A DNA stretch of 36,356 nt from an uncultured Lachnospiraceae bacterium (GTDB taxonomy: Bacteria; Bacillota; Clostridia; Lachnospirales; Lachnospiraceae). The notes under the pieces were generated by a model. The model was not told the origin of the DNA. It was given only the letters and a program-made list of their open reading frames with translations, and did not search any database. The position numbers were made by a program, and so were the translations under genes. Position 1 is the first letter of the stretch. Every line of letters starts with the position of its first letter. Positions 3,151-31,240 of the stretch are shown here, piece by piece. The stretch spans positions 1 to 36,356 of the forward strand of contig CAMNGU010000011.1 of assembly GCA_946538525.1 (NCBI GenBank), written 5' to 3'.

Positions 3151-3191
3151 GAGTATAAAGTTTTAAAGAAGCGATTAACAGGAGGATGCAT

Positions 3192-3977
3192 ATGAAGGTT
3201 GTTTTACTTGCTGGAGGTTATGGAACAAGAATTAGTGAAGAGAGTCATCTTAAGCCAAAGCCAATGATCGAGATTGGTGGAAAGCCAATACTTTGGCATA
3301 TTATGAAGGAATATTCCTACTATGGATTTAACGAGTTTATTATCTGTGCAGGATATAAGCAGCATGTTATTAAGGAGTGGTTTGCAAATTATTATCTGCA
3401 TAATTCAGATATTACATTTGACTTCACTGCTGATAATAAGATGACAATTCATAATAATGTTGCAGAGCCATGGAAAGTTACGATTGTGGATACTGGACTA
3501 AACACTATGACAGGTGGCCGCATTAAGAGAATTAAAGATTATGTTGGTGATGAAGCATTTATGCTTACCTATGGTGATGGCGTTTGTGATATTGATATGA
3601 ATGAATTACTGAAGTTCCATAAGTCTCATGGAAAGCCGGCAACAATTACAGCTATTCGTCTTGGACAGAGATTTGGAATTCTCGATATAAATGACGCTGG
3701 GGTTATTACAAGTTTCCGTGAGAAGGAAGACAGCGATGGAGAAAGAATCAATGGTGGTTACATGGTTCTTGAACCTGAAGTATTCGATTATCTTGAAGAT
3801 GATAGCACAGTATTTGAACAGGCTCCACTTAGAAATCTTGCTAAAGATGGCAAGCTTATGGCATATGAGTATGATGGATATTGGCAGTGTATGGATACAA
3901 AAAGAGAGATGGATAAGTTGAACGAGCTTATTGAATCTGGTACTGCTCCATGGATGAAGTGGAATCAAGAAAAATAA
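3192..3977 (+). CDS. rfbF: Glucose-1-phosphate cytidylyltransferase
   Basis: RfbF joins CTP and glucose-1-phosphate to make CDP-glucose, the first step to CDP-3,6-dideoxyhexoses. The 261-residue product has the nucleotidyltransferase signature VVLLAGGYGTRISEES with KPKPMIEIGGKPI, which is diagnostic for RfbF rather than RmlA or GalU. LTYGDGVCDID supplies the metal-binding Asp. The C-terminal GYWQCMDTKREMDKLN is also typical. I start at ATG 3192, six nucleotides after a perfect AGGAGG (3180-3185); the ORF-track start at 3186 abuts that site. It is the first enzyme of the rfbF-rfbG-rfbH-reductase block. Confidence 0.96.
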   Translation: MKVVLLAGGYGTRISEESHLKPKPMIEIGGKPILWHIMKEYSYYGFNEFIICAGYKQHVIKEWFANYYLHNSDITFDFTADNKMTIHNNVAEPWKVTIVDTGLNTMTGGRIKRIKDYVGDEAFMLTYGDGVCDIDMNELLKFHKSHGKPATITAIRLGQRFGILDINDAGVITSFREKEDSDGERINGGYMVLEPEVFDYLEDDSTVFEQAPLRNLAKDGKLMAYEYDGYWQCMDTKREMDKLNELIESGTAPWMKWNQEK

Positions 3978-4096: not shown

Positions 4097-5155
4097 ATGA
4101 ACAAAAAAGATCTTGAATTTTACAAGGGAAAGAAGGTTCTGATCACTGGACATACAGGCTTTAAGGGAAGTTGGATGTGCAAGATTTTGATCGGTGCTGG
4201 AGCTGAGGTTACGGGCTATTCTCTGGAACCACCTACAAATCCAAGTGTATTTGATGAGGCTGGTATAGCTGCAGAGATAAATAATGTAGTTGGAGACATT
4301 AGAGACCGTGAAAAACTTATGAAGCTGTTTGAAGAAGTACAGCCAGAGATTGTATTTCATCTGGCTGCGCAGCCTATCGTAAGAGAATCTTATAAGGATC
4401 CGGTGGGAACCTACGAGACAAATGTGATGGGTACAGTGAATATTTGTGAAGCTGTTCGCCAAACTCCAAGTGTTAAGTCTTTCCTGAATGTAACAACTGA
4501 TAAGGTTTATAAGAATAACGAGTGGTGCTGGGGATATCGCGAAGATGAGCCGTTAGATGGATATGATCCATATTCAAACTCTAAGTCATGCTCTGAGTTG
4601 GTAACCCATAGCTATATTAATTCATTTTACAATGATATGGATGTGGCTGTTTCTACAGCTCGTGCGGGAAATGTTATTGGTGGCGGTGATTATGCTCCAG
4701 ACAGAATTATTCCTGACTGCGTGAGAGCTGCTGAAAAAAATGAGCAGATAATAGTGAGAAATCCTTACTCAACTCGTCCATATCAGCATGTACTTGAGCC
4801 ACTGAATATTTATCTTACTATTGCGAAGGCGCAGTATGAGGATAAGGCAAAGGCTGGATTTTACAATGTAGGTCCGGATGACAGCGATTGTGTAACAACT
4901 GGTGATATAGTTGATAAGTTCTGTGCATCCTGGGGTGAAGGTATCTCATGGGTGAATAAGCATGACGGAGGTCCTCATGAGGCAAACTTCCTCAAGTTGG
5001 ACTGTTCGCTTATCAAACAGGTATTTGGTTGGAAACCAGTATGGAATATAGATAAGGCAATCGAAATGGTTGTCCAGTTCTCCAAGAGAAGAATGGCTGA
5101 GCCTGATAAGGTAGCTGAGGAGATGGATCTGGAAATCGATGAATTCTTTAGCTAG
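4097..5155 (+). CDS. rfbG: CDP-glucose 4,6-dehydratase
   Basis: This 352-residue extended short-chain dehydrogenase turns CDP-glucose into CDP-4-keto-6-deoxyglucose. The N-terminus VLITGHTGFKGSWM is the NAD-binding GxxGxxG in the form seen in RfbG. TTDKVY carries the active-site Thr-Asp of sugar 4,6-dehydratases, and YDPYSNSKSCSEL gives the YxxxK pair. The GGGDYAPDRIIPD and RPYQHVLEP stretches are typical of the CDP-glucose branch. The start ATG 4097 has an AAGG site upstream. It lies between rfbF and rfbH in the conserved order known from Salmonella and Yersinia O-antigen loci. Confidence 0.95.
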   Translation: MNKKDLEFYKGKKVLITGHTGFKGSWMCKILIGAGAEVTGYSLEPPTNPSVFDEAGIAAEINNVVGDIRDREKLMKLFEEVQPEIVFHLAAQPIVRESYKDPVGTYETNVMGTVNICEAVRQTPSVKSFLNVTTDKVYKNNEWCWGYREDEPLDGYDPYSNSKSCSELVTHSYINSFYNDMDVAVSTARAGNVIGGGDYAPDRIIPDCVRAAEKNEQIIVRNPYSTRPYQHVLEPLNIYLTIAKAQYEDKAKAGFYNVGPDDSDCVTTGDIVDKFCASWGEGISWVNKHDGGPHEANFLKLDCSLIKQVFGWKPVWNIDKAIEMVVQFSKRRMAEPDKVAEEMDLEIDEFFS

Positions 5156-5333: not shown

Positions 5334-6680
5334 ATGAGCAAGTGGAATAGTGAATCAGAAGCAAGGGAAGAGATTAAGAGCTTAGTTGCTGAGTACTATA
5401 AAGAGTTTAAGAAACCTGAGCAGGATAAGCCATTTGAAGAGGGTGACAGAGTACCATATGCAAGCCGTGTATATGATGAGAAGGAAATGTTATCTCTTAC
5501 AGATGCAACTCTTGATTTTTGGCTTACAACTGGTAGATTTTCTGATGAGTTTGAGAAGAACTTTGCAGAATGGATTGGCGTTAAGTTTGCAAACCTAGTA
5601 AATAGTGGTTCTTCAGCTAACCTTATAGCTTTTATGACACTTACTTCACCACTTCTTGGTGATAGACAGGTTAAGCGTGGAGATGAGGTGATTACAGTTG
5701 CTGCGGGATTCCCTACAACAGTTGCTCCAATCATTCAGTATGGTGCTGTTCCTGTGTTTGTTGATGTTAAGCTTCCTGAGTATAACATTGATCCTTCGCT
5801 TCTGGAGGCGGCTCTTAGCGACAAGACAAAGGCAGTTATGATAGCTCATACTCTTGGAAATCCATTTGACTTAAAAGCAGTTAAGGAGTTCTGTGATAAG
5901 AATAATCTCTGGCTGGTTGAAGATAACTGTGATGCGCTTGGAACAAAGTATACAATTGATGGTGTTACTAAGTTCAGTGGAACTTGGGGCGACATCGGAA
6001 CAAGCAGTTTCTATCCACCACATCATATGACAATGGGTGAGGGCGGCTGCGTTTATACAGACAATCCACTTCTTAATCGTATAGCAAAGAGCCTTCGTGA
6101 CTGGGGCCGTGACTGTATCTGTCCTTCAGGACATGACAACTTCTGTGGACACAGATTTGACGGACAGTTTGGTCAGCTTCCTGAGGGCTACGATCATAAA
6201 TATGTTTATAGCCATCTCGGCTACAACCTTAAGGTTACTGACCTTCAGGCTGCAGTTGGAGTTGAGCAGTTAAAGAAATTCCCAACATTTATTGAAAAGA
6301 GAAAAGCTAACTGGAAATATCTTCGTGAAGCTCTTGCTGATCTGGAAGATAAGCTTATTCTTCCAGAACCTACAGAGAATTCAGAGCCTTCATGGTTTGG
6401 TTTCCTCATCAGCGTTCGTCCAGAGTCAGGGCTTAAGAGAAATGCTGTAACAAGATTTATTGAAGAGCATAATGTTCAGACAAGACTTCTCTTCAGTGGA
6501 AATCTTATACTTCATCCATGCTTTGACCAGATTCGTGATACAGATGCATATAGAGTATCTGGTTCACTTGATGAGACAAACTTCATCATGAATAATTCTT
6601 TCTGGATTGGCGTATATCCTGGAATGACAGAAGAGAAGCTTGCATACATGAGCAAGGTTATTCATGAAGCTGTAAAATAA
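5334..6680 (+). CDS. rfbH: CDP-4-keto-6-deoxyglucose 3-dehydrase (E1), PMP and [2Fe-2S] enzyme
   Basis: RfbH/AscC removes the 3-hydroxyl of CDP-4-keto-6-deoxyglucose using pyridoxamine phosphate and an iron-sulfur cluster. The 448-residue product has an aminotransferase fold, but the catalytic Lys is replaced: the motif reads SFYPPHHMTMGEGG with His230/His231, the hallmark of this dehydrase. Cysteines 261, 263 and 271 (DCICPSGHDNFC) match the C-x-C-x7-C cluster ligands; Cys199 in EDNCDALG could be the fourth. The reductase partner RfbI/AscD is not in the window. An A-rich spacer of about 140 nt without a gene precedes it, and TAGGAG sets the start. Confidence 0.95.
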   Translation: MSKWNSESEAREEIKSLVAEYYKEFKKPEQDKPFEEGDRVPYASRVYDEKEMLSLTDATLDFWLTTGRFSDEFEKNFAEWIGVKFANLVNSGSSANLIAFMTLTSPLLGDRQVKRGDEVITVAAGFPTTVAPIIQYGAVPVFVDVKLPEYNIDPSLLEAALSDKTKAVMIAHTLGNPFDLKAVKEFCDKNNLWLVEDNCDALGTKYTIDGVTKFSGTWGDIGTSSFYPPHHMTMGEGGCVYTDNPLLNRIAKSLRDWGRDCICPSGHDNFCGHRFDGQFGQLPEGYDHKYVYSHLGYNLKVTDLQAAVGVEQLKKFPTFIEKRKANWKYLREALADLEDKLILPEPTENSEPSWFGFLISVRPESGLKRNAVTRFIEEHNVQTRLLFSGNLILHPCFDQIRDTDAYRVSGSLDETNFIMNNSFWIGVYPGMTEEKLAYMSKVIHEAVK

Positions 6681-6786: not shown

Positions 6787-7755
6787 ATGGAAAATGTAAT
6801 AATAACCGGCGCTACCGGAATGATTGGAGCACATGTTGCTAAGGTTTTGATGGAGCGCGGCGTAAATGTAACAGCTATTGTCAGACCTATGTCTGAAAAG
6901 ATAGATAATCTTAAATGGGCTGAAGAGAAGGCTAGTATAGCTAACTTTGAAAATTCAAACAATAATGCAGAGGTGGGAAAACTACAGGTAGTTGAATGTA
7001 ATCTGTGGGAATTACCAAGTCTTAGAGATAAGCTGGGCTGGGAGCATGATACCTTCTTTCATTTTGGATGGGGCTATACATTTGGAACTGGTCGAAACGA
7101 TGCTCCAAAGCAGGAAGCTAATATAAAAGCCTGTCTAGATGCGGTTCATTTGGCTTATGAAGCTGGATGTAAGGCGTTTATAGGAGCTGGTTCCCAGGCT
7201 GAATTTGGTCATGTTAGTGGAAAACTATCTGATGCACTTCCTAAGGATCCGGTTACAGGATATGGAATCGCTAAACTTGCTGCATGCAGGTTATCAGCTC
7301 TGGAATGTCAGAATCTGGGCATGAAGCAGAACTGGGGCAGAATACTCAGCTGCTATGGTCCAGGAGATAATGATTATGCTATGGTCATGGCTGCTGTCAA
7401 AGCGATGCTTAGAGGAGAGAGAATGAAATTCTCACCTGGCGAGCAGGTCTGGGATTACATTTATGCAGAGGACTGTGCGAAAGCGTTTGTGGCTATAGTC
7501 GAGAAGGGCGAAAACATGAAAGCTTATACCATTGGTTCTGGAGAGCATAGACTTCTGAAGGAATATATTTATGCAATCAGGGATGCGATAGATCCAAACC
7601 TTGAAGTTGGAATTGGCGAGAGGGAATATAATCAGGATCAGGTTATGCATCTGGTAGCTGATATTACAGATCTGGTAAATGATACAGGCTATAAGCCAGA
7701 AACCAGCTTTGAAGACGGAATTAAAAAGACTATTGAGTGGGCAAAAAACTCATAA
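6787..7755 (+). CDS. NAD(P)-dependent epimerase/reductase, probable CDP-3,6-dideoxyhexose synthase
   Basis: This is an extended short-chain dehydrogenase of 322 residues. IITGATGMIGAHVAKVL is the Rossmann GxxGxxG, GAGSQAEFG supplies the catalytic Ser region, and GYGIAKLAACRL the YxxxK pair. Its place directly after rfbFGH indicates that it reduces the 4-keto group of CDP-4-keto-3,6-dideoxyglucose, as RfbJ (abequose), RfbS (paratose) or AscF (ascarylose) do. The sequence does not tell me which stereoisomer results. No separate RfbE-type CDP-tyvelose epimerase is seen. The ribosome site is weak (GAGAGAAAG) and preceded by a repeat hairpin. An alternative role as a 4-epimerase cannot be excluded. 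Confidence 0.75.
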   Translation: MENVIITGATGMIGAHVAKVLMERGVNVTAIVRPMSEKIDNLKWAEEKASIANFENSNNNAEVGKLQVVECNLWELPSLRDKLGWEHDTFFHFGWGYTFGTGRNDAPKQEANIKACLDAVHLAYEAGCKAFIGAGSQAEFGHVSGKLSDALPKDPVTGYGIAKLAACRLSALECQNLGMKQNWGRILSCYGPGDNDYAMVMAAVKAMLRGERMKFSPGEQVWDYIYAEDCAKAFVAIVEKGENMKAYTIGSGEHRLLKEYIYAIRDAIDPNLEVGIGEREYNQDQVMHLVADITDLVNDTGYKPETSFEDGIKKTIEWAKNS

Positions 7756-7810: not shown

Positions 7811-7841
7811 AAAATATAATCTTCTAATGGAGATGAATAAT

Positions 7842-8804
7842 ATGAAAAAAGTAAGTATATTGATACCTTGCTACAATGAAGAGGAAAATGTTGTTCCTAT
7901 GAGCAACGCAATCCGTGAGATGTTTGAGAAGAACCTCCCGCAGTATGATTACGAGCTCCTGTTTATCGATAATGATTCATCAGATAACACACGTCCTCTT
8001 CTTAGAGAAATCTGTGCAAGAAATAAGCATGTGAAGGCAATATTCAATGCGAAGAATTTTGGTCAGTTCAACTCACCATATTATGGAATGCTTCAGACTT
8101 CTGGAGATTGCGTAATTTCCATGGTATGTGACTTCCAGGATCCTATTGAAATGATTCCTAAGTACCTTGAGGCTTGGGAAGAGGGCTACAAGATTGTTAT
8201 TGGAATTAAGACTGCCAGTAAAGAGAATAAGCTTATGTACGCTCTTAGATCCGTGTACTATAGCTTTGTAAAGAAGTTCTCTGATGTGGAGCAGATTCAG
8301 CATTTTACCGGTTCGGGCCTTTATGACAGAGAGTTCATCGAGGTTCTTCGTAAGCTGAAGGATCCGACACCATTCCTTCGTGGAATCGTGGCTGAGCTGG
8401 GATTTGAGAGAAAAGAAATTGAGTATGAGCAGCCAAAGAGAAGGGCTGGAAAGACACATAATAATTTCTACACCCTTTATGATGCAGCCATGCTGTCCAT
8501 TACTTCATATACGAAGATAGGACTGAGACTCTGTACGTTTATTGGAGCAATTATAGGTATTATAAGTATTATAATCAGTTTAGTTTACTTGGTGCTCAAG
8601 CTTACCAACTGGTACGGTTTTGAAGCTGGTATGGCTCCGATCATCATTTTGATCTCATTCCTTGGAGCGGTGCAGATATTCTCTATCGGCTTCATGGGCG
8701 AATATATTATGAGTATGAATAAGCGAATTATGAACAGACCTCTGGTTGTTGAAGAGGAACGAATTAATTTTGATGATAAAAAAGTTGATGAGAAAAAACT
8801 TTAA
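7842..8804 (+). CDS. GtrB/DPM1-like GT2, undecaprenyl-phosphate sugar synthase
   Basis: The 320-residue product begins MKKVSILIPCYNEEENV, the GT2 start of polyprenyl-phosphate sugar synthases. MVCDFQDPIEMIP corresponds to the metal-binding D-x-D/Q region. KRRAGKTHNNFYTL matches the R-x-A/S-G-x-S/T stretch before the membrane part. Two C-terminal helices (about 227-260 and 268-292) anchor it to the cytoplasmic face. Such enzymes load one sugar on undecaprenyl phosphate for use outside the cell. The two large GT-C-like proteins encoded next are the natural users, giving a gtr-like layout. I start at ATG 7842 because GGAG (7829-7832) is spaced for it; earlier ATGs at 7827 and 7833 overlap that site. 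Confidence 0.88.
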   Translation: MKKVSILIPCYNEEENVVPMSNAIREMFEKNLPQYDYELLFIDNDSSDNTRPLLREICARNKHVKAIFNAKNFGQFNSPYYGMLQTSGDCVISMVCDFQDPIEMIPKYLEAWEEGYKIVIGIKTASKENKLMYALRSVYYSFVKKFSDVEQIQHFTGSGLYDREFIEVLRKLKDPTPFLRGIVAELGFERKEIEYEQPKRRAGKTHNNFYTLYDAAMLSITSYTKIGLRLCTFIGAIIGIISIIISLVYLVLKLTNWYGFEAGMAPIIILISFLGAVQIFSIGFMGEYIMSMNKRIMNRPLVVEEERINFDDKKVDEKKL

Positions 8805-8830: not shown

Positions 8831-8872
8831 ATATGAAGAAATAAAATATGAAGAAATAAAATATGAATAAAT
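8831..8872 (+). repeat. 15-nt tandem repeat carrying in-frame ATG-AAG-AAA-TAA units at a start site
   Basis: ATATGAAGAAATAAA occurs at 8831-8845 and 8846-8860, with a partial third copy ATATGAATAAAT at 8861-8872. The third copy supplies the ATG (8863) of the next gene. Each full unit reads ATG AAG AAA TAA in the same frame, so two minimal upstream frames precede the real start. Confidence 0.85.
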
Positions 8873-11800
8873 ATCGTATGAAAAAACTTCATAAAGTAAT
8901 CCTGCAGTTGATGCTTATTTCTGCTTATCCTGCAGTATTTCATGCTGTGGCTTTTCTGGGAAATGGCAATATGTATAAGCCTGATAGTATGGCTGAAATG
9001 AAATTCCCAATAGCTACTTTTTTGGTGTTTGCAATCTTACTTGTAGCTACTTTTGTTACATTTATAATGGCAAAGTTGGCAGAAAAGAGAGCGAAAATCA
9101 TAGAGGACAGTGAAAATTTACAAAGCGGAAAACTAACGGCGAATTTAGCTCATACCACAAGTAAGCTGATAGCTGAAAACTCTGAAGAAAAGTTTCGTGA
9201 AGTTGTAAAAGCTCATGAGACACCTGATGAGAAGAAAAAGAGGAGAAGAAAGGCTATTAGAAGAAAGGTTCCGATTATTTTACTTTTAGTAATAAGTGTT
9301 GCTTTAAGGCTCCCGATGATTGGAACATTTCAAAGATGGGATGCAGGAGAATACTTCTACACCATAGGAACTTCAGTGCAGGATTATACATTTACCCTGT
9401 CGGACTTTCTGTATAATTTCTCAGTTGCTTATCATCTGAATTACGGATTTACAAGTTTCATCGCAATACCGCTATTTATAAATGCGAGAAGCGTTGAGGC
9501 TGTTACCATATGGCAGATCGTATTTTCAATCCTGGCGATACTTGCGTTATATCAGATTTTTAGAACTGATTTTGGATTTAGACGGTCAAAGTCTGCAGTA
9601 GGCGCATTGATGGTTGGAAATGTACCAATATTCCTGGGACTTTCAGCGTATTGTACACCAGACTATTATGTGGTTTTGTTCTTTATATTTGCGCTTTATT
9701 TTGAGGCGAAGAAACTTCATATATTAGAAGCTTTCATGATCCTTATGATGTGCTTTACGAAGGAAAATTCGGCGCTTATTGTATTTGGCTACTATGGAGT
9801 GAAGATTCTTTACAGATTCATAATAGCTGGAAAGCTTGTTGGACAGAGAAAAGCAATTTTAAATAATATTTCTAAAGCAAAGAGTAGTAAAGAATCTGCT
9901 ACGGATTTAAAAGAAGATTATAGCGATGATTATAGTGAAGATTATAACGAAGATTATAGCGAAGAATCAGAAGATGATTATGGAGAATCAGAGAATGATT
10001 CTAAAAAATCAAAACTGAGAGTAACATTTATTGAAAGACTTAAAATTGTAGTATGTTCTAAAGATTTCTGGGTTGCACTTACTACAGGAGCTGTATTTGT
10101 TGCTGCTATGGGTGTAATGGGCTCTAGTTGGGCTGATAAGCTTAATTCTACAACTATTGCACCAGATGGTATTGCGCCTACAGGATTAACCCTTGAAAAA
10201 CCTTATGTTTATTTCAAGTTGAAGCAGTTTTTTGGTTCGAATTATGCATGGCTCATATCTCTATATTTTCTTCATGCATTTAAAAATATAGTGGTTGAAA
10301 GACTATGGAAGAATCTTAGACATAAAGGCTGGATGACATTTTGTGGACTGATGGGCTCGATGTTCTTCTTCCTGGTTTTTGGTCTTGTATATCATATAGC
10401 TGCAATTGAAAGATATAACATTTTCTTTGCGATTGCTTTAGCCTTTATTTGTGCCATAATTCTTGGAACGGATCTAAATAGTAAATGGTCCTATGCGATT
10501 CTTGGTGGAATTCTAGCAATTCTTCTAGGTGTCGAGAGTTTTATAACCATAGATCCAATGACAAAGTGGCTGTTTGAACAGGTTTCCATTGGAAATGGAA
10601 GAACAATGAATTTTGAAAGTGAATTTACTGAATACTTTGGTGATGGTCTAGTTACAAATTATCAATATGCTTGGATAGACAAATCATTTGATAAATTCCT
10701 TGATGATATTGATTACAATACTGACAAAGCAATCTACTTCCCGGATGAGGAAAGTGGAATGAAGTCAGGAGTCCAGTTTGAAGGAAATGGCGGATATTTC
10801 CGAATTGGATGGTTCCCGGAAAAGAGGAAGCGCGGTTATTATGATTACAATATGTCGGATTGGGAAGAACTGTATATCTGCAGAATTTTCTCTGATAATA
10901 CATGGTTCCCTTATGTCTATGTTCCTTACACAAGAAATGTGACTACAGAATATATGAAGGATCAGTCTTATGTTTGTTTTATTCCTTACTATAAGGAATT
11001 GGGAGTGAACGAAGAGTACTATAAAAATGTTCTAAGCGAATACTATTATTTAGGCAGCGAGGAACAGTCGGAAGCTTATCGTGGAGCTATAAGTTATTAT
11101 CCTATGCTAAAAAAGGATTTGTATTCAGGTGGACTTAGCATGGATATGGTAATTGATGAGCTTAGGGCTAGTCAGAATGAGAGTAACCCGGATGCTCAAA
11201 GACAAAAAAATGTTACCAAGACTGAGATAAGCGAAGCTGCCGAGAGGCTTGCCATGTTAAAAAAGTCTGAATATCTGGTTGTTGCTGAAATGAATGAGGT
11301 TGACAGAACAAAAATTCAGGCGATGGATAGTATCATTCTCTCTGTTCAAATGTTTGATTCAGATGGTAAGAAGATTAAATTAGAGCATGAAGATGAAGAC
11401 ATGGTAGTAAGTGTTGGTACAGGGACTTTAGTAGATGAAGTAGATAAAGCTCTTCAGTCAATGGAATGTGGCGAAGTAGCAGATGTGGAGTTCAAGGTTC
11501 CAGAAGGATATCCAGAACTGGAAGAATATGCAGGAAAATCTGTAATTGCAAAGATTAGTCCACAGGAAATTGTTTGTAGTCTTGAATACAGTATTGAGCA
11601 GGAAGATATTGAAGCTATAGAAGCGTATGCCCGCGATGAGGCAAATGAGTATTTTGACAGATTGAAAGCAAAACAGTGGGTTCGTGGATATATATATCGA
11701 AATGGTACAGAAAATCTGACTAGTATGGTTTCTGAAGAAGAAATAGAAGAGGTAAGAGTGTACTATTACGAATATCTTGAAGGAGTCAATAAGACTAGAG

Positions 11801-11892
11801 ATGAATTTGAGGCCTGGATTGGTGCTACTCCAGAGGAATATGAGCAGGCATTGGCAGTAATAGCGGCCTATGCGAAATGGAGTGGAAAGTAA
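8863..11892 (+). CDS. Polytopic GT-C-like membrane glycosyltransferase with C-terminal trigger-factor-type PPIase domain
   Basis: A 1009-residue membrane protein. Hydrophobic helices start near residues 10, 47 and 133, the last after a KKKRRRKAIRRK basic patch, with more up to about 560. QRWDAGEYF after the third helix suits the catalytic Asp loop of GT-C enzymes, and MCFTKENSALIVF is typical of GT39-like proteins. Residues 347-384 form an acidic tandem region (EDYSDDYSEDYNEDYS). About 450 residues after the last helix should be extracytoplasmic. Within them, about 812-902 (MDSIILSVQMFDSDGKKI...VGTGTLVDEVDKALQSMECGE...VPEGYPELEEYAGK) read as an FKBP/trigger-factor PPIase, followed by a helical tail. 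Expected role: transfer of a lipid-linked sugar outside the cell. The ribosome site is weak (GAAGAAA, inside a repeat). Confidence 0.75.
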   Translation: MNKYRMKKLHKVILQLMLISAYPAVFHAVAFLGNGNMYKPDSMAEMKFPIATFLVFAILLVATFVTFIMAKLAEKRAKIIEDSENLQSGKLTANLAHTTSKLIAENSEEKFREVVKAHETPDEKKKRRRKAIRRKVPIILLLVISVALRLPMIGTFQRWDAGEYFYTIGTSVQDYTFTLSDFLYNFSVAYHLNYGFTSFIAIPLFINARSVEAVTIWQIVFSILAILALYQIFRTDFGFRRSKSAVGALMVGNVPIFLGLSAYCTPDYYVVLFFIFALYFEAKKLHILEAFMILMMCFTKENSALIVFGYYGVKILYRFIIAGKLVGQRKAILNNISKAKSSKESATDLKEDYSDDYSEDYNEDYSEESEDDYGESENDSKKSKLRVTFIERLKIVVCSKDFWVALTTGAVFVAAMGVMGSSWADKLNSTTIAPDGIAPTGLTLEKPYVYFKLKQFFGSNYAWLISLYFLHAFKNIVVERLWKNLRHKGWMTFCGLMGSMFFFLVFGLVYHIAAIERYNIFFAIALAFICAIILGTDLNSKWSYAILGGILAILLGVESFITIDPMTKWLFEQVSIGNGRTMNFESEFTEYFGDGLVTNYQYAWIDKSFDKFLDDIDYNTDKAIYFPDEESGMKSGVQFEGNGGYFRIGWFPEKRKRGYYDYNMSDWEELYICRIFSDNTWFPYVYVPYTRNVTTEYMKDQSYVCFIPYYKELGVNEEYYKNVLSEYYYLGSEEQSEAYRGAISYYPMLKKDLYSGGLSMDMVIDELRASQNESNPDAQRQKNVTKTEISEAAERLAMLKKSEYLVVAEMNEVDRTKIQAMDSIILSVQMFDSDGKKIKLEHEDEDMVVSVGTGTLVDEVDKALQSMECGEVADVEFKVPEGYPELEEYAGKSVIAKISPQEIVCSLEYSIEQEDIEAIEAYARDEANEYFDRLKAKQWVRGYIYRNGTENLTSMVSEEEIEEVRVYYYEYLEGVNKTRDEFEAWIGATPEEYEQALAVIAAYAKWSGK
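9910..9995 (+). repeat. 12-nt coding repeat encoding acidic EDYS/EDYN units
   Basis: Within the 1009-residue gene, GAAGATTATAGC-type 12-mers repeat about four times and then degrade, encoding EDYSDDYSEDYNEDYSEES. The period is a multiple of three, so copy number can change without breaking the frame. The tract falls in a loop between hydrophobic helices. Confidence 0.75.
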
Positions 11893-12017: not shown

Positions 12018-14321
12018 ATGAGCACAGAACAGAAGGACTTAAAAAAGAATGTGGCAGCAGAAGAAAAAATAGTAGAAGAAAATGCGAAAAAAGCAGCTTC
12101 AACTGTGGCTTCAAAACTAGCGAAGATTTCAGCGGCTAAAGATGATGGAGAGCTGGAAAGTACAGTTTCTAAAGCAGAAGAGAAAGAAAAAAGTACAGCA
12201 TCAACAGCATCATCCTCAAAAGAATCTTCAAGAACAGCCACATCTGGTAGTTCAAGCGGTTTCATAGCTTGGGCAAAGTCAAATAAAGGGAAGATGATAC
12301 TTGGCGTTATAGCTTTATTTATTATCTATGTACTCTATCAGCTGAAATATGTTTATGAAGTTTGGTTCGATCCAGACGAGCTGGATATTTATACTGTTGC
12401 ATTTGAGATGGTAAAGGGTAAGGTGCTATATAGAGATATAGCTTCTCAGCATATGCCATTTACATATATTTACAGTACCATCTTCTATTGGCTGGGTGCA
12501 CATGAAGTTTGGCTTCAGAGAATATATTATTACATTCTGTTTGCTTTCTTCTGGACTATGTTTGTTATTAGATATAATAAGTATGTGAATAAATGGGCGC
12601 TTGTGCTTCATCCATTTCTATTCTATACATATATGCAGCTTCAGGATTTTTCTACACAGATTCTTTCGGAAAATATAGTAGCAATCGGTGCAGAAATATT
12701 TGTTCTGGAGTTCATTCGTTTCCTTAAAGAAAAAGATATTGATACAAAGGGCTGCATCCTTATGGCTGTAGCGGTAATGTTCACCTTTGGTACCACATTC
12801 ATAGCAATATTCCCACTGTTCTTTGTTGGATTGGGAGTACTTCTACTAGAGATTAAGTGGCGCATCGAAAGAGGGCAGTCTCGTAAGGACTGGTGGCAGA
12901 TGATGCTAAAGAGATATGGAAAGCTTTTCGGAATCACCTTGATTCCATGGCTAGGGTTCCTTATCTACGGAGCTGCTACACATTCTTTAGGCGACTTCTA
13001 TGTAGATGCTTATCTTATCAACAGACTTTACTATCCTAAGTACAATGATGGCGTTGGCGGAAGTGTTGGAGGTACATTCCTGACTCCGTTTATGAGCCTT
13101 GCAAATGAATTCTTCGGCATAAATATGTCTGCGATAGAACCAACATTTGTTCTTAGATGGATAGGTATAATCGCCGGAGGACTTTACTTCCCATATAAGC
13201 TGGCAAGAAAGTATGGATGGATTGCCGGATTTACTATGTTTGTATATACATTCTCTTATGGAACAAGAGGGTATTTCAATTATCACGGCAAGGGATTCGT
13301 GGCAGTTATAAGTATGATGACCATGATCACACTTGTTCAGTATGCATATAACAGTAAAGAAAGCTTTGATAATGGCGGCCTTGCAAGAAAGGCTTTCCTT
13401 GCTACAGCAGTAATGCTTATATTTGCAAATAATGCTTATAACATGAATAACATGTTCACAGTTCTTGTGAATTCAGAATATAACCACTATCAGTATGATA
13501 CAGATTATCTTACAAAGATTACTGATGAGGATGAGAGAATCTGGATGACTAATATGTGCGATGCTATTCCTTGGGCTGCTAAGAGAGTAACAACAGGTTC
13601 TCCAGTAAGTTGTCCATGGATGTGGGAAGGTGTAGGAGCTCCAATGTTTGAAGAGTTTTCCAAGAACCCACCTAGAGTTATTATGTTCCAGCTGGGATAT
13701 GAATCTTGGGGACACAAGATGGCAGACTATGCGCCGGATGCATATTATTTCATAGTAAATAACTACAGATATCTTCCAGATTCAGGACAGCTCTGGGTGC
13801 TTAATTCATACTATGATGAGGCATGCCGCAAGGTAGGAATTGATCCGGAAACTTATCCAAATGATAATGGCCTTGGGGTAACCCCATACACAGTTGATCC
13901 TTCAGAAATACCAGGAATGACAGCAGAAGATAGAGCAAGATATAGAGAAGCATTGGCAAATGGTGGTGCACCGGCTGAAGTGAAAACAGAGGAACCTACA
14001 ACAGAGGAAGTTACCACAGAGGAGCAAACTACTGAGGCAACAACAGAGGCAACAACCGAAGAAATCAATGTAGATGATGACGCGGAAGATAGCGATGCAC
14101 TTATCGTAACACCTGATTCAAATGATAATAATGATATTATTGATGATACAACAGGACCTGGTTCTACTTCATCAGGAAATGGACCTGGAGATGTAAATGT
14201 AAGCCCTGCAGATGAAAGAGGCGGAAGTAACAGTGATGTAAATGGTGATACACCTGGTGCAGTACAGGCTCCAGATGGCAGCTGGGTAATACCAGACGAT
14301 AGTGATGGACCAGGAATGTAA
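12018..14321 (+). CDS. Second polytopic GT-C/GT39-like glycosyltransferase with low-complexity termini
   Basis: The product is 767 residues. Residues 1-90 are a cytoplasmic Lys/Glu/Ala/Ser-rich segment. The first helix (about 93-115) is followed by YEVWFDPDELDIYTVAFEM, where PDELD fits the acidic catalytic loop of GT39/GT83-type enzymes that use polyprenyl-phosphate sugars. QHMPFTYIY and LQRIYYY continue the family pattern. About ten helices follow. From about residue 654 the tail is an extracytoplasmic Thr/Glu region (TTEEVTTEEQTTEATTEATT) and then an Asp/Gly/Pro-rich end finishing SDGPGM, like a wall-spanning or spacer segment. AAGGAAGG precedes ATG 12018. It probably acts with the GtrB-like enzyme upstream; its substrate is unknown. 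Confidence 0.78.
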   Translation: MSTEQKDLKKNVAAEEKIVEENAKKAASTVASKLAKISAAKDDGELESTVSKAEEKEKSTASTASSSKESSRTATSGSSSGFIAWAKSNKGKMILGVIALFIIYVLYQLKYVYEVWFDPDELDIYTVAFEMVKGKVLYRDIASQHMPFTYIYSTIFYWLGAHEVWLQRIYYYILFAFFWTMFVIRYNKYVNKWALVLHPFLFYTYMQLQDFSTQILSENIVAIGAEIFVLEFIRFLKEKDIDTKGCILMAVAVMFTFGTTFIAIFPLFFVGLGVLLLEIKWRIERGQSRKDWWQMMLKRYGKLFGITLIPWLGFLIYGAATHSLGDFYVDAYLINRLYYPKYNDGVGGSVGGTFLTPFMSLANEFFGINMSAIEPTFVLRWIGIIAGGLYFPYKLARKYGWIAGFTMFVYTFSYGTRGYFNYHGKGFVAVISMMTMITLVQYAYNSKESFDNGGLARKAFLATAVMLIFANNAYNMNNMFTVLVNSEYNHYQYDTDYLTKITDEDERIWMTNMCDAIPWAAKRVTTGSPVSCPWMWEGVGAPMFEEFSKNPPRVIMFQLGYESWGHKMADYAPDAYYFIVNNYRYLPDSGQLWVLNSYYDEACRKVGIDPETYPNDNGLGVTPYTVDPSEIPGMTAEDRARYREALANGGAPAEVKTEEPTTEEVTTEEQTTEATTEATTEEINVDDDAEDSDALIVTPDSNDNNDIIDDTTGPGSTSSGNGPGDVNVSPADERGGSNSDVNGDTPGAVQAPDGSWVIPDDSDGPGM

Positions 14322-14453: not shown

Positions 14454-15041
14454 ATGGGAAAAATTACAGTAGAAGATTGCGTAGTAGACGGACTTACAAT
14501 TGAAGGCCTTAAGGTTATTACACCAACAGTATTTGGTGATGACAGAGGCTACTTTGTTGAAACATATAACTTAAATGATATGAAAGAAGCTGGAATGGAC
14601 TATACATTTGTTCAGGACAACCAGAGCGCATCTAAAAAGGGTGTTTTAAGAGGACTTCATTTCCAGAAGGAATTCCCACAGGATAAGCTTGTAAGAGTAG
14701 TTAACGGCGAAGTATTTGATGTGGCTGTTGATCTTAGACCAGGTAGCAAAACATTTGGAAAATGGTACGGAGTACTTCTTTCAGCTGAAAATAAGAAGCA
14801 GTTTATGATTCCAAAGAATTTTGCACATGGCTTTATTGTTCTTTCAGATTATGCCGAGTTCTGTTATAAGTGTACAGATTTCTATCATCCAAATGATGAG
14901 GGGGGACTTCTCTGGAAGGACCCTGAGATTGGGGTAGAATGGCCAATGCCAGAGAGAATGACTGAAGCTGATCTTACTCTTTCTGATAAGGATCAGAAGT
15001 GGAGTGGAATTGCTGAATATAAAAAAGAAAGAGGACTTTAA
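14454..15041 (+). CDS. rfbC: dTDP-4-dehydrorhamnose 3,5-epimerase
   Basis: RfbC/RmlC epimerises C3 and C5 of dTDP-4-keto-6-deoxyglucose on the way to dTDP-L-rhamnose. The 195-residue product has normal length and the hallmark cupin motifs: FGDDRGYFVETYN, QDNQSASKKGVLRGLHFQ (catalytic His region), GEVFDVAVDLRPGSKTFGKW, and FAHGFIVLSDYAEFCYKCTDFYHP. AAGGAG precedes ATG 14454. No rmlA, rmlB or rmlD is present in the window, so dTDP-4-keto-6-deoxyglucose must come from genes elsewhere. Its position between the GT-C genes and the ABC exporter suggests that rhamnose, or a related 6-deoxy-L-sugar, is part of the exported chain. Confidence 0.95.
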   Translation: MGKITVEDCVVDGLTIEGLKVITPTVFGDDRGYFVETYNLNDMKEAGMDYTFVQDNQSASKKGVLRGLHFQKEFPQDKLVRVVNGEVFDVAVDLRPGSKTFGKWYGVLLSAENKKQFMIPKNFAHGFIVLSDYAEFCYKCTDFYHPNDEGGLLWKDPEIGVEWPMPERMTEADLTLSDKDQKWSGIAEYKKERGL

Positions 15042-15089: not shown

Positions 15090-16553
15090 ATGAACAAGAA
15101 AAAACTACTACGAATTCTGTTCGTAGTAATAATAATCATTCTTAATTTAATAATTTTTTGGAAGATAGATTTTTCCGATATTGACACCAAGGGTGTTTCA
15201 TTTGTGATGGAGATGGCTTCGAATAAAGATGATGAATATCAGATTTATTACACTAAGGTGGGCGAGGATTTTAGCGAAGCAGCCAGCAAGAAGGTGTTTT
15301 ACGATGGCTTTGCAAATGGAACAGATGTAACAACCATAGAAAATGATACTGAAAGCATTACTGTAGGAAAAAAACAAACCCTAAGATTTGATTATCCAAT
15401 AGAATATGATAATCTTCGTCTTGATTTTGGCCAGTATGCAGGAAATACAGTTATTTATGATATGTATTTTGAGATGTCTGGAGTAAAATATCAGATACCT
15501 ATGGAGCAGATTCAAAATGAGAAGAATGCTCCAAGCATTCTGTCTAGAATATTGATGGAAAAGGAAGGACAACAGTGTCTGGTAGTAAATGCAGAAGCTG
15601 GAGATCCAAACATGCTTATTCAGTTCCATAAGGATCAGCTTTTGGAACAGTATAGAGAAGCAAATAGACAGAATACGCTTATTTTAGATATTGCAATATG
15701 TGTTGTTATGGATTTTATTGCAATCTATGTACTTCTGCACTTTTATTCTTTGATTGATATTCCAGTACAGATTTATCAGAATAGAAAGCTGGCTTTAACA
15801 CTTGCTAAAAATGATTTCAAGACAAAATATGCAGGTTCATATCTTGGTATGATATGGGCATTTATACAGCCGGTGGTTACCATTTTGGTTTATTGGTTCG
15901 TCTTTTCAGTAGGTTTAAAGGCTGGTAATGAGGGAGACTACCCATATGTTCTTTTCATTGTGGTAGGTATTATTCCTTGGTTCTTCTTCTCGGATTCACT
16001 TAATGGAGGAACCAATGCAATGACAGACTATAACTATCTGGTTAAAAAGGTGGTATTCAATATTGATATCCTTCCATTTGTGAAGGTATTATCAGCATTT
16101 TTCGTGCATTGTTTCTTTATTGCATTTGCACTGATCCTCTGTACTTGTATGGGACATCATCCAACCATCTATACGGTTCAGCTTATATACTACATATTCT
16201 GTAACTTCGTGTTTGTACTGGGGCTTTCATATCTTAGCTCTGCAATAGTAGTATTCTTCCGAGATTTAGGGCAGTTTATAAATATATTTATCCTGCAGGT
16301 GGGTGTATGGCTTACACCTATTATGTGGAATGCAAATAAGATGCTTAGTCCAACTGCGCTTAAGTTATTTAAGATAAATCCAATGTTCTATATTGTCAGT
16401 GGATTCAGGGACAGCGTTCTGGATAAGAACTGGTTCTGGACAGGAGACAGACTCCTTTGGACCATTTATTTCTGGATTATCACAATATTGGTATTTGGAC
16501 TGGGAGTAAAAATATTTAGAAGATTGAAGATACATTTTGCAGATGTATTGTAA
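15090..16553 (+). CDS. ABC-2 polysaccharide export permease (Wzm-like) with an added N-terminal extracytoplasmic domain
   Basis: The permease of a glycan ABC exporter, paired with the Wzt ATPase downstream. The C-terminal part (about 225-487) is a complete Wzm/TagG unit: an amphipathic QIYQNRKLALTLAKNDFKTKYAGSYLGMIW stretch, then about six helices including VGIIPWFFFSD and VFFRDLGQFINIFILQVGVWLTPIMW. Normal Wzm proteins are about 260 residues; this one has 487. The surplus is a TM helix (7-24), about 170 residues predicted outside the membrane with strand-like repeats (LRLDFGQYAGNTVIYDMYFE), and a second helix (195-222). I do not know a named family for that domain. The ribosome site is weak (GAGAGAAAA). 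Permease identity is secure; the role of the extra domain is open. Confidence 0.9.
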   Translation: MNKKKLLRILFVVIIIILNLIIFWKIDFSDIDTKGVSFVMEMASNKDDEYQIYYTKVGEDFSEAASKKVFYDGFANGTDVTTIENDTESITVGKKQTLRFDYPIEYDNLRLDFGQYAGNTVIYDMYFEMSGVKYQIPMEQIQNEKNAPSILSRILMEKEGQQCLVVNAEAGDPNMLIQFHKDQLLEQYREANRQNTLILDIAICVVMDFIAIYVLLHFYSLIDIPVQIYQNRKLALTLAKNDFKTKYAGSYLGMIWAFIQPVVTILVYWFVFSVGLKAGNEGDYPYVLFIVVGIIPWFFFSDSLNGGTNAMTDYNYLVKKVVFNIDILPFVKVLSAFFVHCFFIAFALILCTCMGHHPTIYTVQLIYYIFCNFVFVLGLSYLSSAIVVFFRDLGQFINIFILQVGVWLTPIMWNANKMLSPTALKLFKINPMFYIVSGFRDSVLDKNWFWTGDRLLWTIYFWIITILVFGLGVKIFRRLKIHFADVL

Positions 16554-16592: not shown

Positions 16593-16602
16593 GGTGAAAA
16601 TC

Positions 16603-17955
16603 ATGTCAGAAGATATAGCAATTAGAATAAATGATGTTTCAAAACTGTATAAGCTTTACGATAAGCCTACTGACCGGTTGAAGGAGTCTTTGGGACTTAC
16701 CAAGGCCAAGAAGTATAAGGAGCATTTCGCTCTTCGCAATGTGAGTTTTGATGTGAAGAGAGGTGAATGCGTAGGAATAATTGGAACTAATGGTGCTGGA
16801 AAGTCTACTATCCTGAAAATCATAACTGGAGTTCTAAATCCTACTGCCGGAGAGGTTACTATAAATGGCCGTATCTCTGCTCTTCTAGAGTTAGGAGCCG
16901 GCTTCAATATGGAATATACAGGTATAGAAAATGTTTATCTAAATGGTTCCATGATTGGATTTAGTCGTGAGGAAATTGATGCAAAATTACAGGATATACT
17001 TGATTTTGCTGATATAGGTGATTTTGTAAATCAGCCTGTAAAGACTTACTCATCAGGTATGTTTGTAAGACTTGCCTTTGCGGTGGCAATCAATATTGAA
17101 CCAGAAATACTTATAGTTGATGAAGCACTTTCAGTAGGTGATGTTTTCTTCCAGCTGAAATGCTTTAAAAAGTTTGAGGAATTTAAGCAGCAGGGAAAAA
17201 CTATTCTCTTTGTAAGTCATGATCTTTCAAGTATAGAGAAGTATTGTGACAAGGCAATTCTTCTGGATCATGGTAGAAATGTTGGAGAAGGAACTCCAAT
17301 TGATATCATAAATAAATATAAGAAGATAATGACAGGAATGACTGTCGAAGAAGTTGAAGAGCAGGAAAAGAGGAAAGCTGAGCTTAGAGATTTAGTAGCT
17401 GAGGACTCAGAAAATTCTGAAAATAAAGAGGAATTAGAAGAGGCTAAAACCAGTACTTTTTCACTTACACCAGAGGTTCCTTGGAAAGAAAGCTTTGATC
17501 TAAATCCAAATCTTGATGAATATGGAGATATGGGTGCCAAGATTATTGATATCGGTGTGTTTGATGAAGATGAAAATCTTACAACCACAATAATAAAGGG
17601 CGGTAAATTTACATTAAGATCAAAGATAGAATTTAAAACAGATATAGAAGATCCTATTTTTACATACACCTTTAAGACACTTAAAGGCCAGGATATTACA
17701 GGTACAAATACCATGTATGAAAAAGCAGGAGTAGGAATTGCCCATGCAGGGGATATATTTGTGGCAAGTTTTACACAGGAGATGAACCTGCAGGGAGGAG
17801 AATATCTGCTCTCTATGAGTTGTACAAGTTTTGTAAATGGCGATCTTGTAGCTCATGACAGACTCTATGATGTATTAAATATCACGGTTGTGTCGGACAA
17901 GAATACTGTGGGATTCTATGATATGAATTCCAAGGTTAAAATTGATAAATTATAG
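16603..17955 (+). CDS. Polysaccharide ABC transporter ATPase with C-terminal glycan-binding domain (Wzt-like)
   Basis: The 450-residue product powers the adjacent permease. Walker A is GTNGAGKST (61-69), the signature is YSSGMFVRLAFAVA, Walker B ILIVDEALSVGD and the switch His LFVSHDL. The N-terminal YKLYDKPTDRLKESLG is typical of glycan exporters. After a charged linker (about 245-280) a beta-rich C-terminal domain follows (about 290-450: DMGAKIIDIGVFDEDENL...GDIFVASFTQEMNLQGGEYLLSMS). In Wzt of polymannan systems this domain reads the modified chain end before export. Its presence predicts a terminal modification, and a methyltransferase and kinase-like gene follow directly. I start at ATG 16603, since AGGTGA overlaps the track's GTG at 16594. 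Confidence 0.94.
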   Translation: MSEDIAIRINDVSKLYKLYDKPTDRLKESLGLTKAKKYKEHFALRNVSFDVKRGECVGIIGTNGAGKSTILKIITGVLNPTAGEVTINGRISALLELGAGFNMEYTGIENVYLNGSMIGFSREEIDAKLQDILDFADIGDFVNQPVKTYSSGMFVRLAFAVAINIEPEILIVDEALSVGDVFFQLKCFKKFEEFKQQGKTILFVSHDLSSIEKYCDKAILLDHGRNVGEGTPIDIINKYKKIMTGMTVEEVEEQEKRKAELRDLVAEDSENSENKEELEEAKTSTFSLTPEVPWKESFDLNPNLDEYGDMGAKIIDIGVFDEDENLTTTIIKGGKFTLRSKIEFKTDIEDPIFTYTFKTLKGQDITGTNTMYEKAGVGIAHAGDIFVASFTQEMNLQGGEYLLSMSCTSFVNGDLVAHDRLYDVLNITVVSDKNTVGFYDMNSKVKIDKL

Positions 17956-18021: not shown

Positions 18022-18765
18022 ATGGATATTTACGACGAGCTTTTAAATATAGTAAAAACTGAATCGGATTTAGAAGAGTTTCTTACCCATGAGAATAAAT
18101 GGGAATATCTCTATAATTTTTCAAATATCAGGAAGAATATTCTCGAATGGTATGATTTTAAATCTGATGCAAAGCTTTTGGAGTTTGGAGCAGAATGTGG
18201 TGCACTCACAGGGCTTTTCTGCGAAAGAGTGAAGGAAGTTGTTTCTGTTGAAGATGATGAGAGAAAACGACTGGTAAATAAAGCAAGAAATGAAAAATAT
18301 AGTAATTTAAAGATTGTATCTAACGAAGAATTGTCAGAGAAATCTTTTGATTATATTACTATAATTGGTAATTTTTCGATTGAAACTTTGAAAAAGGCTA
18401 AAAAGTTATTAAAGCCAAAGGGACGACTTATTATAGCAATCGAAAATAAATATGGAATGAAGTACTGGTCAGGAGAAGAGAGACCTGATACTTATTCCAG
18501 AATGCAATTAATTGGAATAATAAGGCGTGAGGGATTGCTGGAAGATGAGGTTTATTATCCTATTCCAGACTATGTATTACCTACGGAGATATATTCATCA
18601 AATAATCTGCCTAAAGTGGGAAGTATTTCTGCAAACTCTCCAGCATATGAAAAAGAAAAGATTACTGCATTTGACGAACCTTCAGCCTTTGATATGGTGA
18701 TAAAAGACAGAAGATTTGAAGAGTTTGCGAATTCATTTTTAATCTTTGCTAAGAGTAATAGCTAA
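18022..18765 (+). CDS. SAM-dependent class I methyltransferase of the glycan locus
   Basis: The product is 247 residues. LLEFGAECGALTGLF is the SAM-binding motif I (acidic end of strand 1 plus a glycine loop), VVSVEDDERKR motif II, and FDYITIIGNFS the motif IV region. LLKPKGRLIIAIENKYGMKYWSG is a pattern I associate with methyltransferases of clostridial surface-glycan loci. YYPIPDYVLPTEIYSS is the usual end of that family. The central part is shorter than in relatives I recall. It sits between the Wzt ATPase and the kinase/coiled-coil/GT protein, so it most likely methylates the glycan, perhaps at the end read by the Wzt C-terminal domain. AAAGGA is 5 nt from ATG. The acceptor is unknown. 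Confidence 0.8.
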   Translation: MDIYDELLNIVKTESDLEEFLTHENKWEYLYNFSNIRKNILEWYDFKSDAKLLEFGAECGALTGLFCERVKEVVSVEDDERKRLVNKARNEKYSNLKIVSNEELSEKSFDYITIIGNFSIETLKKAKKLLKPKGRLIIAIENKYGMKYWSGEERPDTYSRMQLIGIIRREGLLEDEVYYPIPDYVLPTEIYSSNNLPKVGSISANSPAYEKEKITAFDEPSAFDMVIKDRRFEEFANSFLIFAKSNS

Positions 18766-18815: not shown

Positions 18816-21800
18816 ATGTCAGAGCTGTTGTATATAAAATATAATTCTCATAGAAAGCCAGAATATCAGGTATCTACACGAATAGTGTCAAAAAATGGCG
18901 TTAAGCGTGTAGTTAAGTGTCCATCGACACAAAAGGCTGAGATGCAAATCGATACAATAAAAAAGAATTATAAATTACTTAAGGATTATTATAACTCAAT
19001 AAAGGTAATACCATTTAGAAAGGCTGGAAATGGTGTTTCTTTTGATTTTGTTGAAGGTACATCAATAATCGAGGGAATTAATTTTGAGAAAGATAGCCTT
19101 GATAGTATTTATAAGAGGCTTCTTCATACAATGGATGAAGTACTGGATATTAAAGAGGAATATATCTGTGATTTCGAAGAAACAAAAGAGTTTAGTGAGA
19201 TTTTTCCGGATATGCATCCTACAGGAAAGGCATATAAAATCTGTAATCTGGATAGTATTTTCAGTAATTTCATAAGGACGAAAGATGGAATAATATGTAT
19301 AGACTATGAATGGGTTTTAAATTTCCCTGTTCCTATCAATTTTATTCGCTTTAGAATGATGCAAAATATCTACAATGAGCATATTGGATATCTTTTAGAC
19401 AAAGTGGATATTAAAGACTTTATAGGATGTCTGGAATTATCTGATGATGAGATGGATTTATATTTTGATATGGAGAGAGCTTTCCAGGAATTTGTTCATG
19501 GAGAGAATTTGAAATACAGCTATTTGGAAAATTATAAGAAAAGCTGGGGCAGATTAGATAATTTCATCGAGGAATTTAAGGAAAAAGAAAATCATGTTAA
19601 GAATCTGGAAGGAATTATTCAGAATAAGGATGAATTAATAAATAATAAAGATGAAGTAATCAAGGCGCGTGAAGAAATAATTCAAAATAAGGATGCAGTT
19701 ATTGAGTCAAAAGAAAACCAGATTAAAGAAAGAGAAATTAGTATTCAGAATTTGAATGATCAGGTTTCTGCAAAAGATAATCATATTGAGAATCTTAATT
19801 CTATAATAGAAAAAAAGCAGGAAGAGCTAGAGAATTTACTAGAAGCAAAGGCTCAATTACAAGAAGCAAAGGATCAGCAGGCAAGGGATTATGACAGTTT
19901 GCTTCAATATGAAATGTTAAGAAGAGATAATGATATTATATATAGAGATGGTCTTCTGCAGATAAAAGATGCTCAGATAGCTCATTTGACAAAAATGACT
20001 AGAAATCCGTTATATTGGGGCTATTGTCTGGGCCGAAAGGTATGTAGAAAAGCATACCGTATTATTGAGCCTAGGGGGTTAAAAGAGAAAAAAGCAGAAA
20101 TAGAGAAGAATGGAAAATATAAGTATAAATATAAAGATTTAATGGATCTGGATAATACAGATTATGCTGACTGGATTGAAAGAGTTGAGAAGAATTATCC
20201 AAAGGAAAAACGCTTAAAATACCAGCCAAAGATATCCGTGTTGGTTCCTGTTTACAATGTGTTGGATAAACATTTGATTCCTTGTATTGAGTCAGTCATC
20301 AACCAGACATATGATAACTGGGAACTATGTCTCGCAGATGACAAATCAACATGGGATAATGTTAGGGAGACTTTGGAAAAATATGAAGATCACCCTAAGA
20401 TTAAGATTGTTTATAGAAAAGAAAATGGACATATATCGGAGGCAACAAATTCTGCTCTATCAGTGGCATCAGGCGACTTTGTTGGACTTTTGGATTGTGA
20501 TGATATTCTTTCTCCAAATGCTTTATATGAAGTTGCTCTAAAGTTAAATGAGAATAGAGAGCTGGATTTTATTTATAGTGATGAGGATAAGGTGGATGAG
20601 GAAGGGAATAATCGCCATATGCCTCATTTTAAACCGGATTGGTCTCCAGATACTTTGATGTCCAATATGTATACATGTCATTTTACAGTGTATAGAAAGA
20701 GCTTAGTGGAAAAAGTTGGTGGTCTTAGAACAGAATGTAACGGTTCACAGGATTATGACTTGGCTCTTCGAATTATGGATGAGACTACTCCAGATAAAAT
20801 CTCACATATAGCTAAAATACTTTACCATTGGAGAGAGAGAGAAGAGTCTACCTCTGGAAATGCAACTGTTAAGCCATATGTTTTTGAAGCAGCTAAGAAG
20901 GCAAAACTGGATTCTCTTGAAAGAAGAGGAATTAAGGGTGAAGCTGTATATGTCGATGAAATGTATCAGTACAATGTTGTTTATACAGTTCAAAATAGTC
21001 CTAAGGTTAGTATAGTCATTCCTTCAAAGGATAATTATAAGGTACTCAGTAGATGTATAGAAACATTGCATAAATATACAGAGTATAAAAATTTTGAAGT
21101 CATTCTCGTTGATAATGGAAGTAATGATGAAAATAGAAAGAAATATGATAATCTATGTAAAAAACATAACATGAAATATTTCTATGAGAAAATGGACTTC
21201 AATTTCTCTAAAATGTGCAATATTGGTGTAAAAAATGCTACTGGAGAATATGTTCTTCTGCTTAATGATGATATTGAAATACTTGAAGAATCAGGAAATT
21301 GGCTTGGTGTAATGCTGGGACAGGCGCAGATATCATATACTGGAGCGGTAGGAGCAAAGCTTTTATATCCTGAAGAAAGAAAGATTCAGCACGTTGGTGT
21401 CATCAATATTGAGAATGGACCAGTTCATGCTTTTACAGGAATGTCAGATGATATTGTTTACTATTTCGGAAGAAATAGGCTGCATTATAATGTCCTAGCA
21501 GTTACTGCTGCTTGTCTTATGATCAGTAAAGAAAAATACTGGAAAGTTGGCGGATTTGATGAAAGCTTTGCAGTTGCCTATAACGATGTAGATTTTTGCT
21601 TCAAGCTTTCAGAGGCAGGATACTTTAATGTAGTAAGAAATGATATAACACTTATTCATCATGAATCTGTCAGCCGAGGGAATGATTTAGTTGATATAAA
21701 CAAGACTAGAAGATTGATGGATGAAGAGAATAGATTATATGGTATTCATAGTTCATATGCACATTATGATCCATTTTATAATTCTAATTTGACTCAGTTA

Positions 21801-31227: not shown

Positions 31228-31240
31228 ATTGGAGGTATAT

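Follow-up and report, generated by a model that had tools for sequence, protein, structure and literature searches.

A predicted GT-C glycosyltransferase fused to a trigger-factor-type FKBP tail in Lachnospiraceae

Described GT-C systems and relatives of the tail

In multi-component glycosylation systems a GT2 enzyme loads a sugar onto undecaprenyl phosphate, the product is flipped, and a GT-C enzyme transfers the sugar on the outside (PMC8035078, PMC11127046). The larger GT-C enzymes bear accessory outer domains that bind the acceptor (PMC8035078, PMC11127046), and a review from 2021 speculated that the small ones need a separate acceptor-binding protein (PMC8035078). GtlB, YfhO, GacL and GT136 of Citrobacter youngae resemble the enzyme described here in that they are multi-span proteins with a conserved outer acidic residue, are found beside a polyprenyl-phosphate-sugar GT2 and, in the larger members, carry accessory outer domains (PMC8035078, PMC11127046). 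In contrast to this group, the accessory domain of our enzyme is a trigger-factor-type FKBP domain with an arm instead of a carbohydrate-binding module, and the neighbouring sugar pathway is that of CDP-3,6-dideoxyhexose. The mycobacterial enzymes EmbC and AftD likewise combine a GT-C with extra outer acceptor-binding domains (PMC11127046, PMC8035078), but these are carbohydrate-binding modules.

Trigger factor (Tig) shares the fold of its FKBP domain, and probably that of the first part of its arm, with the fused tail, whereas the tail lacks the ribosome-binding domain, is membrane tethered and predicted to lie outside, and has a degenerate pocket. The secreted trigger-factor-like lipoproteins of Lachnospiraceae, which lack the ribosome-binding domain as well, can be aligned with the tail from the FKBP domain through half of the trigger factor C-terminal domain. 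Unlike them, the tail possesses neither the PPIase pocket nor the remainder of that C-terminal domain nor a lipoprotein signal. FKBP11 at the human OST translocon also places an FKBP domain beside a GT-C and acts as an adaptor, not as an isomerase, its nominal catalytic site being buried (PMC12804085). However, it is a separate protein of a eukaryotic system and serves as an analogy only. The PPIase-dead variant F198A of FklB still binds its partners (PMC7353009). Both halves of the fusion are of known kinds, and their combination is restricted to a clade. No fitting report of a GT-C/trigger factor or glycosyltransferase/PPIase fusion was found in the open-access literature, and the GT-C/trigger factor fusion appears to be undescribed.

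Architecture of the fused protein and its gene neighbourhood

The window, i.e. the whole stretch of 36,356 nucleotides that was analysed, is one contig (C11) of an assembly of 2.63 Mb in 187 contigs that is 80% complete. The fused protein is read from a single open frame (8863-11892, +), and its parts and neighbouring genes are listed in Table 1.

Table 1. Features of the window discussed in this study
Feature	Position	Strand	Basis
Glucose-1-phosphate cytidylyltransferase RfbF	3186..3977	+	TIGR02623, 384 bits, above cut-off
CDP-glucose 4,6-dehydratase RfbG	4097..5155	+	TIGR02622, 443 bits, above cut-off
RfbH, 3-deoxygenation step of CDP-3,6-dideoxyhexose synthesis	5334..6680	+	NF011936, 711 bits, above cut-off
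SDR-family NDP-sugar epimerase/reductase	6787..7755	+	Several SDR models, all weak and below cut-off
GT2 with C-terminal hydrophobic segments, polyprenyl-phosphate-sugar synthase type (PgfS/ArnC-like)	7827..8804	+	Putative undecaprenyl-phosphate role
GT-C glycosyltransferase with trigger-factor-type FKBP tail, 1009 aa	8863..11892	+	ORF, Pfam, NCBIfam, AlphaFold model
GT-C transmembrane core, aa 121-563	9223..10551	+	PDB matches ALG12, ALG9, Pmt4, ArnT
Codon of the acidic residue D160, motif RWDAGEYF in the predicted first outer loop; candidate for catalysis	9340..9342	+	Conservation
Outer C-terminal domain, aa 564-748, common to the whole GT-C family; tail-less members stop here	10552..11106	+	
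Variable linker with helix running into FKBP domain, aa 749-815	11107..11307	+	
Trigger-factor-type FKBP domain, degenerate PPIase pocket, about aa 816-904	11308..11574	+	
Trigger-factor-like C-terminal helical arm, aa 905-1009, truncated after first half	11575..11889	+	
Second large membrane protein, probably another GT-C, Thr/Glu-rich tail (TTEE..)	12018..14321	+	
RmlC-type epimerase	14454..15041	+	TIGR01221 above cut-off
ABC-2 polysaccharide exporter permease, Wzm type	15090..16553	+	ABC2_membrane
Polysaccharide ABC exporter ATPase, Wzt_C carbohydrate-binding domain	16594..17955	+	Wzt_C, 133 bits

The folds of both halves were assigned by prediction and sequence. The full-length AlphaFold model (pLDDT 84, pTM 0.81; like the tail model, it comes without interdomain error estimates) matched AglB, ALG12 (TMt 0.53), ALG9, OST, Pmt4, ArnT and AftB in the PDB, in addition to trigger factor, and at the level of predicted structure the protein was confirmed as a GT-C glycosyltransferase. 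It contains 12 hydrophobic segments, which lies within the range of about 7 to 13 transmembrane helices of GT-C enzymes. The Pfam model PMT_2 reached 23.9 bits and stayed below its gathering cut-off of 26.1 bits, which a relative (L047) passed with 27.5 bits. A PDB sequence search with the full protein returned nothing useful. K300, R517, Y518 and D564, the latter located directly after the transmembrane core, are invariant in 27 homologues; D160, H191, D267, E301, W423, P565, N599 and W650 are conserved in at least 90% of them. D160 represents the conserved acidic residue characteristic of the first outer loop of GT-C enzymes, provided that it is positioned outside as predicted, and by analogy to known members it is the candidate catalytic residue. 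With 46 Lys and Arg against 88 Asp and Glu residues the C-terminal part is acidic; this composition and GT-C precedent suggest that it lies outside, including the tail.

An earlier note made from the sequence had described a membrane glycosyltransferase fused to a trigger-factor-type FKBP domain at about aa 812-902, followed by a helical tail. Pfam FKBP_C matched aa 817-888 with 23.8 bits (cut-off 21.1), and in a search of this one genome it matched window positions 11311-11526 with an E-value of 2.9e-6, besides trigger factor (L001) and a free-standing secreted trigger-factor-like lipoprotein (L002) as the other two of three matches. The NCBIfam trigger factor model TIGR00115 matched aa 808-899 (E 1e-7, 31.2 bits) with its positions 139-227 of 410; the score is far below the whole-protein cut-off of 180.2 bits because only a part of trigger factor is present. 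A profile built from nine fused tails aligned to seven secreted trigger-factor-like lipoproteins with a probability of 98.3% (E 2e-14). The alignment spans the FKBP domain and continues through half of the trigger factor C-terminal domain, the later half being absent from the fused tails. In the PDB the same profile retrieved trigger factor (E 1e-3). For the tail alone, AlphaFold2 predicted an FKBP fold (pLDDT 85, pTM 0.65). The best PDB matches of this model in Foldseek were chloroplast trigger factor, E. coli trigger factor and FKBPs, and its TM score to FKBP13 was 0.69 when normalised by target length. The FKBP_C search and the structure prediction, both proposed as checks in the earlier note, thus agreed with its reading. 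Together with TIGR00115 they bore out the fusion, and the ancestry of the domain is that of trigger factor rather than of a generic FKBP. The limits given were right within a few residues, the FKBP domain being placed rather at about 816-904, and the helical tail probably represents the trigger factor C-terminal arm in truncated form. Most likely, the tail descends from a trigger factor of the secreted lipoprotein type.

A chance match was ruled out by the profile-profile comparison and the structure match. The nine tails of the genus all share a cysteine, C905 (11575-11577), in an I-x-C motif where the FKBP domain ends.

The gene order of the window is broadly kept in four loci of relatives (L004, L005, L086, L087) as far as these extend, and partly in a shorter one (L088), with genes named by resemblance to the window's proteins. 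In the window and in all five of these loci a GT2 of the polyprenyl-phosphate-sugar type adjoins the GT-C. A second genomic context was found for four fused copies (L081, L082, L083, L084), which in four genomes lie by themselves, flanked by an ispH-rpsA fusion gene and by rplS-lepB-ylqF, without glycan genes beside them as judged from the translations of the neighbours. One genome (G459) holds one fused copy in each context. The best hint at a possible acceptor other than the polysaccharide of the operon comes from this standalone context.

Further observations concern other genes of the window. Neither Pfam nor NCBIfam assigned a family to the second large membrane protein, and Pfam did not match 28656-29951. 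In the ABC-2 permease the permease domain is preceded by about 200 additional N-terminal residues, its homologue in AC2031 (L005) being shorter. Positions 18816-22208 encode a protein of 1130 aa with an N-terminal part, a coiled coil and then two GT2 domains. Together with the adjoining methyltransferase (18022-18765) it is reminiscent of the chain-length rulers of methyltransferase/coiled-coil type that belong to ABC-exported O-antigens; a PDB sequence search gave no match in support of a WbdD-like identity. A nucleotidyltransferase fused to a CobD/HisC-like enzyme of the aminotransferase fold (31229-33055) possibly makes an activated amino-alcohol or phosphonate substituent. A transposase-like ORF (34570-36174, minus strand) is located at the end of the window.

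Distribution of the fusion and loss of the PPIase pocket

In our survey of the genus the GT-C core was detected in 10 of 61 genomes, eight of which hold nine fused genes. These include NE2001 and AC2031 (G465 and G005 of the genus set), which have the same fused architecture, the AC2031 copy being located on a contig of 3,191,482 bases. In one of the remaining two core-bearing genomes the gene is truncated at a contig end. The other belongs to a sister species (G470), in which the same operon encodes a protein (L049:1291-3477) from which the FKBP domain is cleanly absent by internal deletion while the final trigger-factor-like arm is kept. Hence, the enzyme can do without this domain. The linkers of the fused genes vary strongly in length. 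A tenth, divergent fusion was found in another genus (G267, L013; tail match E 1.5e-5). The named relatives are Lachnospiraceae. The survey of relatives proposed in the earlier note thus found the same fusion again, and the possibility raised there that the gene is an assembly chimera of two neighbouring genes was ruled out by nine fused genes in eight genomes, one of them on a 3.19-Mb contig.

At the family level, 26 of 397 genomes, the window's own included, contain the GT-C core. About 23 other genera of Lachnospiraceae have it without such a tail, and their proteins stop where the tail begins. Outside the family the core was found in one genome only among 391 genomes of the class. Long proteins with the tail were restricted to the window's own gene and the GT-C of G267 among the 397 family genomes, all other tail matches being in frames of 282-536 aa. 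In the tree of the core the genus copies form one clade with support of 100/100, and a single clade with the G267 fusion was not rejected (AU p 0.46). One protein of the family (L014:583-3354, G071) combines the same core with a different C-terminal extension with a Lys-rich end, which is DUF4214-like by eye, its Pfam matches being weak.

The substrate pocket of trigger factor, which we take to be lined by the aromatic residues F177, F198 and F233 plus F168, F185 and Y221 (E. coli numbering, register checked in the alignment), has degenerated in the fused domains. The equivalents of F177, F198 and F233 are I/V, V/I/L and A/V/I, i.e. non-aromatic in nine out of nine genus tails, those of F168, F185 and Y221 are partly replaced, and the FDGG/FEGG loop segment is missing. 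In contrast, all three positions are Phe in 8 of 9 free-standing trigger-factor-like proteins, including the trigger factor and the secreted lipoprotein of the same genome; the sole exception (L036) has none of them. The domain thus has the FKBP fold and the FKBP_C match of an FKBP-type PPIase but not the hydrophobic-aromatic substrate pocket. Since the aromatics were lost from all nine fused domains and kept in nearly all free-standing relatives, the fused domain is probably not an isomerase, although pocket loss alone is no proof of inactivity. Among relatives in the rfb operon the fused FKBP domains share 40-51% identity with that of the window, similar to part of the GT core, and dN/dS of the FKBP segment was about 0.1 in two pairs whose synonymous sites are saturated. 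Purifying constraint together with conservation like that of parts of the GT core indicates that the domain is used and not decaying. Judged by its sequence, it seems to be maintained for something other than catalysis.

Possible roles of the tail

The reading that we favour, giving it about an even chance, is that of a GT-C acting outside, in which a module derived from a chaperone docks the acceptor or a partner without being catalytic itself. It is the simplest account in view of the outer acceptor-binding domains of larger GT-Cs (PMC8035078, PMC11127046). The four copies away from polysaccharide genes and the sister species lacking the FKBP domain weigh against it. For the window copy we infer that the neighbouring GT2 probably loads the undecaprenyl-phosphate carrier, plausibly with a CDP-derived 3,6-dideoxyhexose. 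At the outer membrane face the GT-C would take the sugar from this carrier and transfer it to an exported acceptor. The tail has lost the isomerase pocket but retains the FKBP fold and, probably, part of the arm of the chaperone. It may keep the acceptor, whether a polymer or a polypeptide, or else a partner protein, close to the active site, in a position that carbohydrate-binding domains take in other large GT-Cs.

Alternatively, the trigger-factor-derived tail may capture unfolded or newly exported polypeptides for O-glycosylation by the GT-C, which would parallel in bacteria the chaperones that work next to oligosaccharyltransferase. Binding of polypeptides by trigger factor modules is established, PMTs and OST were among the fold matches, FKBP11 is located at the OST translocon (PMC12804085), and the four copies between ispH-rpsA and rplS-lepB are without polysaccharide genes. 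However, rplS and lepB are neighbours of an ordinary housekeeping kind, the copy in the window and those closely related to it reside among polysaccharide genes that include a Wzt_C exporter, the peptide-binding pocket of the FKBP domain is degraded, and an acceptor is not identifiable from GT-C fold similarity. We therefore regard this role as unlikely, albeit the most probable of the alternatives. With the window copy among polysaccharide genes and others alone by rpsA, rplS and lepB, the suggestion of the earlier note that the tail points to protein glycosylation was not established. A bolder version, in which the tail is a built-in capture module that passes unfolded exported polypeptides on to the GT-C for O-glycosylation, as a bacterial counterpart of the chaperone-coupled glycosylation at the ER translocon, is slightly more doubtful. 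Between these two we rank an intramolecular or assembly role, in which the tail lends stability to the outer domain of the enzyme itself (the earlier note had considered that it assists this domain), mediates dimerisation or contacts the neighbouring GT-C and leaves the acceptor untouched. The direct junction of the tail with the outer domain, the established use of FKBP domains as dimerisation or adaptor modules and the retention of the tail throughout one enzyme clade, apart from one loss, are consistent with such a role, whereas the enzymes without an FKBP domain in about 23 other genera and in the sister species argue against it.

It is improbable that the tail is an inherited passenger without a present function in glycosylation. 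The internal deletion in G470 and the variable linkers would fit this explanation, but the tail was retained in nine genes and two genomic contexts with a constrained FKBP segment. Least probable of all, and very much so, is an active PPIase or chaperone, as suggested in the earlier note, that isomerises prolines in an acceptor protein or in secreted proteins. The FKBP fold, the Pfam match above the cut-off and the equivalent of Y221 retained in five rfb-operon tails are in its favour; against it stand the altered pocket, including the missing loop, and the secreted lipoprotein encoded by the same genome, which kept its pocket. The idea of a working PPIase thus found no support.

How GT-C enzymes recognise their acceptors is an open question for most bacterial systems. 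The enzyme family described here exists in four states, namely tail-less, with the trigger factor tail, with a tail that lost the FKBP domain by deletion, and with another type of C-terminal extension. Comparing these states offers a way to test what the extra domain does. In the fused proteins, a folding helper has become a permanent and apparently non-catalytic component of an enzyme.
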